64,000 nucleotides of DNA, taken from positions 1,798,001 to 1,862,000 of the forward strand of contig CP095846.1 of NCBI GenBank assembly GCA_023100825.1, read 5' to 3'. The notes under the pieces are model-generated. The model ran no database searches, was not told where the DNA came from, and saw only the letters and a list, made by a program, of their open reading frames with translations. This DNA is from Nocardioidaceae bacterium SCSIO 66511. Lineage in GTDB: Bacteria; Actinomycetota; Actinomycetes; Propionibacteriales; Nocardioidaceae. A program made the position numbers and the translations under genes. Positions 57,464-60,999 of the stretch are shown here, piece after piece; positions within the stretch are counted from its first letter, which is position 1; every line of letters begins with the position of its first letter.

Positions 57464-58381
57464 GTGAACCGTTCAGCGCGTCCGGGTCGCGTGGTGGCCG
57501 TCGTCGGGCCGACCGCCGCGGGCAAGTCCGATCTCTCTGTCGCGCTCGCTCGCCGCATCGGTGGCGAGGTGGTCAATGCCGACTCGATGCAGCTCTACCG
57601 CGGGATGGACATCGGCACCGCCAAGCTCCCGCCCGATGAGCGACAGGGGATTCCACATCACCTGCTCGACGTACTCGACGTACGCGAGCCGGCGACCGTC
57701 GCGGAGTTCCAGGGCTGGGCTCGCGCAGCGATCGCCGACTGCGTCGCGCGAGGCGTGACGCCGATTCTGGTCGGTGGATCTGCGCTCTACGTACGGGCGG
57801 TTCTCGACGACTTCGAGTTCCCGGGCGCTGACCCGGACGTACGTGCCCGGTTGGAGCGTGAGCTCGATCGTGACGGGTCCGCGGCGCTGCATGCGCGGCT
57901 GGCCGAGCGGGATCCGGTCGCGGCCGGGAACATCCTGGTGTCGAACGGCCGGCGGATCGTACGGGCGCTCGAGGTCATCGAGATCACCGGCGAGCCGTTC
58001 AGCGCGACGCTGCCGAGCCAAACGTACGTCTACGACGATGTGGTCGTCCTCGGGATCGACGTGCCGCGCGACGTGCTGGCCGGACGCATCGAGCGACGCG
58101 TCGACCGCATGTGGCACGCCGGTCTCGTCGACGAGGTACGTGGCCTCGACGGGCTGCGGGAGGGACGTACGGCGAGCCGGGCGCTCGGATACGCACAGGT
58201 GTTGGCGTACCTCGCCGGCGAGTGCACCGAGGAGGAGGCCAAGGACCTGACCGTCCGGCGTACCCGCCAGTTCGCCCGGCGCCAGGACGCGTGGTTCCGC
58301 AAGGATCCCCGGATCCGATGGCTTTCGTACGACGACGTCGACCTGGTCGACCACGCCGTGCGACTGCTCGACACCAGATAG
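57464..58381 (+). CDS. miaA: tRNA dimethylallyltransferase MiaA
   Basis: Adds dimethylallyl to A37 of tRNAs reading UNN codons, making the substrate of MiaB. It has 305 residues with the P-loop GPTAAGKS (15-22), the DSMQLYRGMDIGTAK substrate motif and the (R)RTRQFARRQDAWFR segment. GTG 57464 is chosen because CAGAAT (57451-57456) ends seven bases upstream; ATG 57455 inside that box would be the alternative. Confidence 0.95.
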   Translation: MNRSARPGRVVAVVGPTAAGKSDLSVALARRIGGEVVNADSMQLYRGMDIGTAKLPPDERQGIPHHLLDVLDVREPATVAEFQGWARAAIADCVARGVTPILVGGSALYVRAVLDDFEFPGADPDVRARLERELDRDGSAALHARLAERDPVAAGNILVSNGRRIVRALEVIEITGEPFSATLPSQTYVYDDVVVLGIDVPRDVLAGRIERRVDRMWHAGLVDEVRGLDGLREGRTASRALGYAQVLAYLAGECTEEEAKDLTVRRTRQFARRQDAWFRKDPRIRWLSYDDVDLVDHAVRLLDTR

Positions 58382-58390
58382 CCTTTCGCC

Positions 58391-58909
58391 ATGACGCATG
58401 CGAAGACAGTCGACTGCGACGGTGGTTTGCTGATCGGGCACGACGGGTCGGAGTTCTCCGACGCCGCGCTGTCCTGGACGCTCGATCTTGCCGAGCGGCT
58501 CGGCACCCACGTGACGGTGGTCCGGGCGTGGGTGCTCACGACGGCCCCGCGGCCGAAGACCTGGAGCCCCGGCTACATGCCGCCGCTCGTCGACTTCGAG
58601 GAGGCGACGGTCGAGAAGCTGACGGCCGGTGTCGCCCACCTCGTCGCCGAGCATCCCGACGTACGGGTGTCGCATCAGGCGGTGCACGGGCGTCCCGCAT
58701 CGATCCTGGTCGAGGGATCCGAGCGAGCAGACATGCTCGTTGTGGGGCCGCGCGGCCTCGGCGGGTTCCGCGGCCTGGTACTCGGATCGGTCAGCGAGCA
58801 GTGCGTACGCCATGCGAAGTGCCCGGTCGTGGTCGTACACGACCGTGGCGAGCCCAAGACGCCGGCCGCCGGTCTCGCCCTCGACGACAGCCTCACGCCC
58901 GACGACTGA
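58391..58909 (+). CDS. Universal stress protein (UspA family)
   Basis: The 172-residue single-domain protein has the ATP-binding motif G-x2-G-x9-G-(S/T) in VGPRGLGGFRGLVLGSVSEQC and an early LIGHDGSE aspartate. TAGCCT (58379-58384) ends six bases before ATG 58391 and its first three bases are the miaA stop codon, so the promoter is carved out of the miaA end. Such proteins bind ATP during starvation or hypoxia. Confidence 0.9.
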   Translation: MTHAKTVDCDGGLLIGHDGSEFSDAALSWTLDLAERLGTHVTVVRAWVLTTAPRPKTWSPGYMPPLVDFEEATVEKLTAGVAHLVAEHPDVRVSHQAVHGRPASILVEGSERADMLVVGPRGLGGFRGLVLGSVSEQCVRHAKCPVVVVHDRGEPKTPAAGLALDDSLTPDD

Positions 58910-58932
58910 GTCTGTCCAGGGCGACTGCAGGG

Positions 58933-59100
58933 CTAGTGCCCTGCGTTTGAAGTACCTTGACGTCTTTCGCCGCCCAGGCGGCGCCCCGCGGCGTCCTCAT
59001 CGTCGGAAATAGGACCGACTATGCCCGTCCTCCTCGTCCTTGCGGATGCATCCACCTGGACGACGCCTTCCGTAAAGCCACTTCAAACGCAGGGCACTAG
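58933..59100. mobile_element. 168-bp MITE-like element with perfect terminal inverted repeats
   Basis: Perfect 21-bp inverted repeats (58933-58953 and 59080-59100) enclose 126 non-coding bases. The outermost four bases are CTAG on both sides; CTAG is its own complement, so this is consistent with a 4-bp target duplication flanking a 17-bp inverted repeat. Inside are a CGCCGCC/GGCGGCG hairpin (58968-58983) and a GTCGG/CCGAC hairpin. No transposase is present. It lies 23 bases after the usp stop. Confidence 0.8.
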
Positions 59101-59154
59101 GCACGCGACCCCACCATGTAGTACCCATGGGGGACCACCGACGCTGGGAGCCCC

Positions 59155-60999
59155 ATGCCGAAACGTGCAATGACCGCAGCCATCGCGCTGACCTCTGCCG
59201 CCGCGCTTGCGACGGTCTCCGCCCCTCTGGCGGTCGCCGGGCCCGACGACTCGGGCGACGCAGCCGCCGTCCGCAGCAGCAGCCCGCCGAAACCGGGTAA
59301 GCAGCACGTCGCGCGGGGTAGTGGCGGCGCGGTGGCGTCGGTGGACGAGAGCGCGACCCGGATCGGGGTCAAGGTGCTGAAGTCCGGCGGCACAGCCGCC
59401 GACGCGGCGATCGCCACCGCCGCTGCGCTCGGCGTCACCGAACCGTACAGCGCCGGCATCGGCGGAGGCGGTTACTTCGTGCACTACAACGCGAAGACCG
59501 GCAAGGTGCAGACGATCGACGGCCGCGAGACTGCGCCGGCGAAGTTCCCGAACGACGCGTTCATCGACCCCGAGACCGGTGACCCGTACCCGTTCTTCCC
59601 CGACCGGGTGACGAGTGGCGTCTCGGTCGGCACACCGGGCACCCTCGCCACGTGGAAGGCGGCGGCGGACCGTTGGGGCAAGCGGTCGCTCGCGCGCAAC
59701 CTCTCCCCGGCGACGCGGCTTGCCCGCAAGGGATTCAAGATCGATCAGACCTTCTACGACCAGACCGAGGCCAACGCCGAACGCTTCGCCGCGTTCCCCT
59801 CGACCTCGGACCTCTATCTGCCCGGTGGTGAGCCGCCCGCGGTCGGATCGCGGTTCCGCAACCCCGACCTCGCGCGTACGTACCAGCAGATCGCGAAGCA
59901 GGGCCCGAAGGCGTTCTACCGCGGTCCGCTGGCCCGGGAGATCGCGACCACCGTGCAGGAACCGCCCACCTCGGACTCCACCGACCTGCCGGTGCCGGCC
60001 GGCTACATGACGCCGAAGGATCTGCACAACTACGACGTCAAGTGGCAGCAGCCGACGCATCTGAAGTACGAAGGTCTCGACGTCTACGGCATGGCGCCGT
60101 CGTCATCGGGTGGTACGACCGTCGGCGAGGCGCTGAACCTCCTCGAGAACTACAAGCTCGGAAAGGCACGTACGCCTCGGAGCCTGCATCTTTACCTCGA
60201 GGCGTCCGCGACGGCGTTCGCCGACCGGGGCGCGTACGTCGGCGACCCGGCGTTCACCGATGTGCCGACCGACGTGCTCACCAGCCAGAAGTTCGCCGAC
60301 GGACGGGCCTGCACGATCGACCCGAAGCAGGCCGCCGAGAAGCCCGTTGCGGCGGGCGACCTCGACGGTGATCCGTGCGGTGGGGACGCGGCCGCCAAGC
60401 CCGACACCGAGGGCCTGTCGACAACGCACCTCTCGGTGGTCGACAAGTGGGGCAACGCGGTCGCGTACACGCTCACCATCGAGCAGACCGGTGGCTCTGG
60501 CATCGTCGTACCCGACCGGGGATTCCTGCTCAACAACGAGCTGACCGACTTCTCCGCGGAGTACGACGAGGCCGATCCGAACCGCCCGCAGGCGTACGCA
60601 CGGCCGCGCTCCTCGATGTCGCCGACGATGGTGCTCGACGACGGTGAGGTGAAGCTGCTCGTCGGCTCGCCCGGTGGGTCGACGATCATCACGACGGTGC
60701 TGCAGGTGCTGCTGAACCGGCTCGACCTGGGCATGACGCTGCCGCAGGCCGTTGCCGCTCCGCGTGCGTCTCAGCGCAACACCGCCGAGGTGTCCGCCGA
60801 GCCGGAGTTCATCGACACGTACGGCGATGTGCTCGAGCCGTTCGGGCATGTGCTCGTGCCGTCCGGCGACGAGTTCACACCGGACGCGGAGATCGGAGCG
60901 GTCGCGGCGATCGAGGTGCGCCCCGACGGCACCCTGGTCGCAGCGGCAGAGCCGACGCGGCGTGGCGGCGGCACCGCTGGGGTCGTCCGTCCGCGCTGA
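59155..60999 (+). CDS. ggt: Gamma-glutamyltranspeptidase
   Basis: Exported N-terminal-nucleophile hydrolase that cleaves glutathione and other gamma-glutamyl compounds. It has 614 residues with a signal peptide (about 1-28) and a self-cleavage site before T423 (STTHLSVVD), which becomes the nucleophile of the small subunit. The glutamate-binding SPGGS near residue 505 and GGGGYFVH in the large subunit are intact. ATG 59155 has GGGAG four bases upstream. The MITE lies in its upstream region. Confidence 0.95.
   Translation: MPKRAMTAAIALTSAAALATVSAPLAVAGPDDSGDAAAVRSSSPPKPGKQHVARGSGGAVASVDESATRIGVKVLKSGGTAADAAIATAAALGVTEPYSAGIGGGGYFVHYNAKTGKVQTIDGRETAPAKFPNDAFIDPETGDPYPFFPDRVTSGVSVGTPGTLATWKAAADRWGKRSLARNLSPATRLARKGFKIDQTFYDQTEANAERFAAFPSTSDLYLPGGEPPAVGSRFRNPDLARTYQQIAKQGPKAFYRGPLAREIATTVQEPPTSDSTDLPVPAGYMTPKDLHNYDVKWQQPTHLKYEGLDVYGMAPSSSGGTTVGEALNLLENYKLGKARTPRSLHLYLEASATAFADRGAYVGDPAFTDVPTDVLTSQKFADGRACTIDPKQAAEKPVAAGDLDGDPCGGDAAAKPDTEGLSTTHLSVVDKWGNAVAYTLTIEQTGGSGIVVPDRGFLLNNELTDFSAEYDEADPNRPQAYARPRSSMSPTMVLDDGEVKLLVGSPGGSTIITTVLQVLLNRLDLGMTLPQAVAAPRASQRNTAEVSAEPEFIDTYGDVLEPFGHVLVPSGDEFTPDAEIGAVAAIEVRPDGTLVAAAEPTRRGGGTAGVVRPR

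Follow-up and report, generated by a model that had tools for sequence, protein, structure and literature searches.

A putative IS630-type MITE in an actinobacterial family of short elements with varying ends and a hairpin-forming core

In the window (the whole stretch of 64,000 nucleotides that was analysed), genes for a universal stress protein (usp) and a gamma-glutamyltranspeptidase (ggt) enclose a conspicuous segment of 168 bases, 58933-59100. It opens with CTAGTGCCCTGCGTTTGAAGT at 58933-58953 and closes with the exact reverse complement of these bases at 59080-59100. A preliminary description of this DNA had given a perfect inverted repeat of 21 bp bounded by CTAG, and this is confirmed; the repeat is nested in arms of 49 nt that are 78% complementary. 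CTAG is indeed scarce here: single-base composition would predict about 189 sites, and the window has 18 others. The hairpin that had been proposed between the two genes is borne out by folding: the 168 bases reach -81.2 kcal/mol, whereas 200 shuffles averaged -49.9 (sd 4.2) and never equalled the native value (z -7.5).

The mobile unit within this segment, 162 bp long, starts 26 bases after the end of usp; on its other side, 57 bases separate it from the ggt start codon, an ATG (Table 1). Neither a sigma-70-like promoter nor a terminator-like site was found in 58800-59250. The region 58300-59400 had no Rfam match up to E 1, and four loci from elsewhere in the class gave a single match, at E 0.82 and outside the element, so a known Rfam RNA was discarded as a candidate.

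Table 1. Positions of the genes and of the parts of the element in the window.
Feature	Position	Strand	Basis
MITE unit, GTG...CAC, 162 bp	58936..59097	.	Ten own-genome copies; boundaries from targets TTAG (L005) and CTAA (L056)
Left terminal inverted repeat, 18 bp	58936..58953	+	Exact reverse complement of 59080-59097
Right terminal inverted repeat, 18 bp	59080..59097	-	Exact reverse complement of 58936-58953
Left TA of the target duplication, within CTAG 58933-58936	58934..58935	.	TA at both ends in 22/24 copies
Right TA of the target duplication, within CTAG 59097-59100	59098..59099	.	TA at both ends in 22/24 copies
Core common to other genera with different ends	58971..59065	-	BLASTN, two-strand folding
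Purine-rich arm, GCAAGGACGAGGAGGA on the minus strand	59028..59043	-	Alignment A3, columns 26-41
Opposite arm, CGACGATGAGGACGC on the minus strand	58991..59005	-	Alignment A3, 3' arm, columns 66-80
usp, universal stress protein	58391..58909	+	PF00582, E 2.8e-27
ggt, gamma-glutamyltranspeptidase	59155..60999	+	PF01019, E 5.5e-147

Copies and insertion sites in the genus

The segment had been taken for a mobilised element without a transposase gene of its own, and its distribution agrees with this. The own genome (G000, one contig of 4.6 Mb) holds ten whole-unit copies that are 93-100% identical to the window's; nine of them extend over 167-168 of the 168 bases and one over bases 3-165. Other matches in this genome comprise one weak match of 50 bp and the ends matching each other. 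At G000:C1:1338782-1338820 (L011) a left end of about 40 bp is followed by unrelated sequence, a truncated copy. The second genome of the genus (G001) carries at least 14 copies, some with about 32 bp extra in the middle. In L054, L056 and L081 of G001 these added bases lie in the loop region and contain a separate small hairpin rich in G+C (GGGGGCACCTCCCGGCGCT...); they may be another repeat. Among 294 genomes of the taxonomic family, the end pattern (at most one mismatch) occurred only in G000 and G001.

Insertion targets were compared in 24 two-ended copies, 10 from G000 and 14 from G001 (L057 was left out because it has no right end). Of these, 22 are flanked by TA at either end, and the remaining two, L009 and L050, are decayed. 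The target reads CTAG in 20 copies, TTAG in one (L005) and CTAA in one (L056). Because TA alone is common to both sides of L005 and L056, the unit runs from GTG to CAC and the duplication is TA. The target duplication of the preliminary description thus exists, but what is duplicated is TA and not CTAG; by the same reasoning the 168-bp segment is real, but the mobile unit is the 162 bp flanked by TA. Units are 162 bp as a rule (range 159-163), and the longer form measures 194 bp.

For an empty-site test, the flanks of the ten own copies were joined and sought in G001. The site of L003 is cleanly empty there, reading CCATC-CTAG-GTG with identical bases around a single CTAG, so at least one copy has the clean empty site in a sister genome expected of a mobile element. 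The window's own site has no element and one CTAG in G001, but the sequence there is CAGAGCACTAG, which matches the element's right end at 10 of 11 positions; this empty site is ambiguous, and an old remnant may lie there. At the L010 site, G001 is empty and reads GTAG, while the L005 and L007 sites aligned without the element and with a changed target. Alignment at the joint was poor for L002, L004, L008 and L009, and the L006 site did not align. As expected of a MITE, the unit is too short for a transposase, has perfect ends of 18 bp, occurs in dispersed copies flanked by a TA duplication and has an empty counterpart.

Nine of the 24 copies (L006, L007, L046, L048, L049, L051, L053, L054 and L055) have their insertion point in a neighbouring gene's stop codon, TAG. 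Since the element starts with G, TA plus this G rebuilds TAG and the end of the gene is preserved. Other CTAG sites coincide with stop codons in 6 of 17 cases in the flanks and in 0 of 18 in the window. A target preference for stop codons was considered but did not emerge from comparing the 9 of 24 copies with these 6 of 35 other CTAG sites, genes being called with a crude caller. Paired neighbouring family members that share their target, or nearly so, form insertion chains at L086 (~1501-1860, G001) and L205 (1501-1823, G417).

An IS630-type mover

IS630 is said, going by the title of a 1991 report by Tenzen and Ohtsubo, to prefer TA within 5'-CTAG-3'. Both IS630 and ISY100 duplicate TA, according to the available text of PMC2170065. 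A TA duplication combined with a preference for CTAG therefore points to IS630/Tc1-mariner behaviour and not to IS5. Searching named genomes with the end pattern gave six matches. Those in Kribbella and Fodinicola were pursued; the ones in Mariprofundus, Sporomusa and Levilactobacillus had no convincing second end, and the sixth came from a Myxococcales MAG. Just one full-length IS came up through the end pattern itself: L132 of Kribbella (the same element as L166), an IS630 inserted in CTAG, with ends GTGTCGCGTGTTTGAAGTTG and GTGTCGCGTGTCGTTGATTA and a transposase split over two frames. This IS and the 2-bp duplication of TA speak against the IS5-like mover suggested at the outset.

Further IS630 elements were retrieved by other routes. 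A DDE_3 search yielded a second one in Kribbella (L167, ends GTGCCTCGTCAAGCAACGTT), and DNA similarity led to plasmid IS630s of Rhodococcus (L176) and Streptomyces (L177) with ends GTGCCCCGAGTTTGAAGTTG and GTGTCCTGAATCG. A scan for TA-anchored ends was successful at four of six IS630 loci, with ends starting GTG at L132, L167, L176 and L177 and none at L174 and L175. Across the class, the helper domain (PF13358) was sought in 16 genomes. Convincing ends at IS length, with GTG after TA at either side, were obtained for five of 14 DDE_3 loci: four in G417 and one in G312. The four IS630 copies of G417 measure 1,127 bp, all lie in CTAG, and the transposase frame of 357 aa is open in L214; the IS630 of G312 (L220) lies in CTAG as well, with ends GTGTCATACGCCTGAAATTC and GTGTCCTGCGCCTGAAATTC and an open frame of 433 aa. 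The end of the MITE L205 and that of the local IS630 in G417 have 13 terminal bases in common; L205 lacks TA flanks and has CTGG on both sides. Between the window's end and the closest-matching end of L220, which is intact, 15 of 20 bases are identical. Except for L132 these loci were found by seeking IS630, so their IS630 transposases are no independent evidence. Other actinobacteria do harbour IS630 elements whose ends are similar and whose target is CTAG.

A full-length IS with the same ends, which the preliminary description had envisaged, did not emerge in the genus: neither G000 nor G001 has a pair of ends at IS distance with up to three mismatches, or a DDE_3 (IS630-type) domain at E 0.001. 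The domain was also missing from 11 of the 16 other family-bearing genomes, and BLASTN with the end of one class member recovered no helper. We infer a helper for the window's element in its own genus, a transposase that would have acted in trans and since been lost from G000 and G001, or never have been resident in them.

A second genus, represented by seven copies taken from each of G336 and G422, provides a comparison. TA flanks all 14 copies, and the targets are CTAG in 12, CTAA in one and CTAC in one, within differing flanks; in L236 and L239 the two sides share TA alone. The copies of G336 are up to 100% identical. These sites bear on whether an IS5- or IS701-like transposase duplicating the whole 4-bp CTAG could be responsible. 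Duplications in the IS5 family are 3 or 4 bp long (YTAR, TNA). CTAG at both ends of 20 of the 24 genus copies would suit such an enzyme, as would one interrupted IS701-type DDE_5 fragment in G001 and the example of MITEPsy1 (marked IS5?), for which the available text of PMC3189936 gives a 4-nt duplication of CTAG or YTAA. Yet in four copies of the two genera (targets TTAG and CTAA; CTAA and CTAC) the two sides share TA alone, G000 has no DDE_5 match and the single IS surfaced by the end pattern is an IS630. We regard a 4-bp mover as very unlikely.

The segment is very probably an IS630-type MITE. A transposase of the IS630/Tc1-mariner type would recognize the terminal repeats and, acting in trans, cut and paste the 162-bp element; insertion would take place at TA, mostly within CTAG, with duplication of the TA.

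Two neighbouring observations concern elements with similar ends. In a plasmid of Streptomyces sp. NBC_01435, L210 (513-896) has a lookalike of an IS630 start, CTAGTGTCCTGCACCTGAAATTG, followed by an ATG frame, and abuts the CTAG of a family element. The Myxococcales MAG, which belongs to another phylum, has short elements of its own with similar ends and unrelated interiors. Those at L105, L109, L112, L118 and L124 have GTGTCCTGT ends and are partly nested (68 bp within ~213 bp), and the locus L169 shows a weak DDE_3 match with an end resembling theirs.

Core, ends and folded strand across the class

To survey the class we built a covariance model on 14 genus copies and two Kribbella copies, 16 in all, and ran it on 394 genomes, scoring up to seven places per genome with rough E-values. 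It matched 49 of the 394 genomes and 18 of 138 genera; among the matches listed, 11 families are represented by label and the full model is covered in all but one place. In 34 members the majority base reached a frequency of 0.60 and 0.62 in the outer 25 bases of the two ends and of 0.76 in the core, including two best stretches at 0.82-0.89. For the two ends of one copy the mean agreement is 0.89, with a minimum of 0.39; between genomes it is 0.51 for the best pair of ends and 0.66 for the core.

The window's core is 77-80% identical to those of L180, L196, L197, L201 and others, the ends of which agree with the window's at 0.33-0.50. The 34 loci of other genera compared with it had been preselected with the covariance model or through a different class member; BLASTN of 58971-59065 recovered 15 of them at E 0.001, the best value being 5e-16 at a nominal database size of 1 Mb. 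Fodinicola presents the inverse case, with ends agreeing at 0.89 and cores at 0.42-0.46, the core lying weakly above shuffles (z 3.2 and 3.5). Together, the Fodinicola and window-core comparisons point to an exchange of ends and cores or to very unequal rates of divergence. The window's element is a member of a family of actinobacterial elements whose ends differ between genomes while the core is kept.

Single loci of the class (n=28) carry TAG at both ends in 13 cases and at one end or none in the others, partly because the end points of the model sit a few bases off. A branch of the family resides on Streptomyces plasmids, where 56 records match L203. At E 0.01 neither plasmids nor phages contained a match to the window's element itself; its end pattern and the family's core pattern had none in viral contigs, and one class member searched against phages had none.

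Folding of the core was analysed on the strand opposite to the window, that is the minus strand, here called the S strand. Alignment A3 comprises 33 cores: two of the genus (the own genome being represented by L003 and not by the window copy), five of the six Streptomyces plasmid copies and 26 of the 29 class loci. Its rows were required to contain the motif within 3 and 2 mismatches, so the conservation of these columns is in part a product of the selection; Kribbella and Fodinicola were omitted for want of the motif, L213 as truncated, and L185-L187 as near duplicates or cut sequences. The consensus is a hairpin on the S strand consisting of a middle stem, a purine-rich internal region, in which the two arms face each other through G-C and G.A pairs, and an inner hairpin. 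Pairing is realized in 93.5% of 660 cells, compared with 75.4% after shuffling and 23-57% after sliding, and 17 of 20 pairs changed on both sides; the structure was derived from the same alignment, and the shuffles ignore kinship.

Columns 34.74 and 35.73 hold tandem G.A and A.G pairs in 27 of 33 rows, between G-C pairs three apart. In the six remaining rows both positions form Watson-Crick pairs, with two kinds occurring at 34.74, a switch that would be expected of paired positions. Columns 29.79 and 31.77, which lie inside the selection motif, are A.G and G.A in all 33 rows. Columns 28.80 and 32.76 run counter to the pattern, with A.C and C.A in 28 and 30 rows.

The S strand was the more stable one in all 33 cores with RNA parameters (mean difference 14.6 kcal/mol) and in 32 with DNA parameters. 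Full elements behaved alike: in 34 of 34, which partly share descent and are not 34 independent events, the S strand was more stable with RNA (mean 23.7 kcal/mol) and with DNA parameters (9.1), and it carried 7.1 G.U pairs against 2.2. These 34 were picked by the covariance model and not by the motif, and include the motif-less Kribbella and Fodinicola; since the model has the orientation of the opposite strand, the search should not favour the S strand. Three short Myxococcales stretches with similar ends but different interiors followed no strand rule (+0.8, -5.5 and +1.2 kcal/mol).

How far these features require a use for the folded strand can be debated. There are many MITEs of comparable size that carry long imperfect palindromes, and their arms can be made to match by template-switch repair. 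The element may be an ordinary deletion-derived IS630 MITE, its hairpin and covariation arising only from a transposase's requirement for matching ends and from quasi-palindrome correction, with the folded strand unused. Such repair can also produce covarying stems, and the Kribbella and Fodinicola arms lack the G.A motif, as this reading would allow. Quasi-palindrome repair accounts for covariation but not for one-sided mismatches, and here the mismatches are one-sided, with the same strand favoured in every full element, Fodinicola with its at best weakly related core included. In addition, the G.A mismatches are retained instead of corrected, and the core is retained while the ends change. 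We consider the ordinary MITE a serious possibility that falls somewhat short of probable.

The orientation of the copies indicates whom a folded strand would serve. For the 24 genus copies and 28 class loci, with genes called by a crude caller, the S strand was sense and antisense in a ratio of 26:27 relative to genes running towards the element and 19:19 relative to genes starting after it. Random orientation, and the lack of a promoter- or terminator-like site in the interval searched, suggest that the folded strand serves the element and not its neighbours. A cis-acting regulatory RNA spread by transposition (a terminator, an mRNA stabilizer or a 5' leader) would fit the very stable hairpin and the nine copies that begin at a neighbour's stop codon; the balanced orientation, the missing terminator-like site at the window copy and the frequency of stop codons at other CTAG sites in the flanks, although not in the window, make it improbable.

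Perfect DNA palindromes are badly tolerated by cells. G.U pairs hold an RNA hairpin together yet break a perfect palindrome in the DNA, which makes an RNA reading attractive. Movement as folded single-stranded DNA, in the manner of attC cassettes or REP elements, would also be in keeping with one strand that folds better, with DNA parameters too, and that keeps its mismatches. The TA duplication and matching ends point instead to a double-strand DDE mechanism, and we think this mode of movement unlikely.

The core strand (minus in the window) is predicted to form a long hairpin with covarying stems, G.U pairs and tandem G.A pairs, and the folded single strand, as RNA or single-stranded DNA, would be used by the element itself. 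We infer selection for this folded strand. A tentative proposal, possible but not the likelier side of the question, is an actinobacteria-wide family of cassettes in which a core with a strand-specific hairpin and tandem G.A pairs is framed by interchangeable ends suited to different IS630-like helpers; the fold would act for the element, in trans or during movement, and this would explain why the core is kept.

Comparison with known systems

Elements that act through one folded strand with kept mismatches are known from attC sites and REP/REPIN sequences, which depend on IntI or Y1 enzymes. They are not known to duplicate TA, unlike the window's element. IS630 and ISY100 duplicate TA as here, with the difference, as far as the available text on them goes, that they are autonomous and encode their transposase.

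Closer counterparts are found among short repeats. RUP of Streptococcus pneumoniae is 107 bp long, is present in 108 copies, has ends like those of an IS630-family IS and inserts at TA (PMC2229807, available portion). It thus resembles the window's element in being a short repeat with IS630-like ends and TA insertion. Its partner IS630-Spn1 is known, whereas no partner of the window's element was found in its genus; and a kept core between varying ends, the feature of the actinobacterial family, is not described for RUP in the portion of PMC2229807 available. The same portion attributes inverted ends, terminal TA, target duplication and long stem-loop transcripts to Correia/NEMIS and ERIC elements, which are like the present family in their short size, inverted ends and TA but have other sequences and hosts. 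MITEPsy1 of Pseudomonas syringae, as presented in the available part of PMC3189936, is 100 nt long with 18-nt ends, counts CTAG among its targets and moves in cells. Short size, 18-nt ends and the CTAG target are shared with the window's element; MITEPsy1 differs in its 4-nt duplication and in its suggested parent, ISPsy2, where the window's element has TA and IS630-type ends.

Five sequence strings of the family occurred in no paper of the open-access literature searched, and no actinobacterial MITE of this sort was described in the accessible parts of that literature; the available text of PMC2267715 and PMC2770080 has nothing on an actinobacterial MITE family. The kind of element is already known from RUP, Correia, ERIC and MITEPsy1, and what appears to be new, on the sequence comparisons made here, is a class-wide MITE family with a kept core, varying ends and a strand-specific hairpin. 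If this is correct, there would be MITEs with a function of their own, and actinobacteria, including their Streptomyces plasmids, would offer many natural variants for testing. The folded strand could in itself be relevant to the biology of these elements. Bacterial MITEs are usually seen as passive remnants of IS elements in which the ends alone matter; in this family the ends change and the middle stays.
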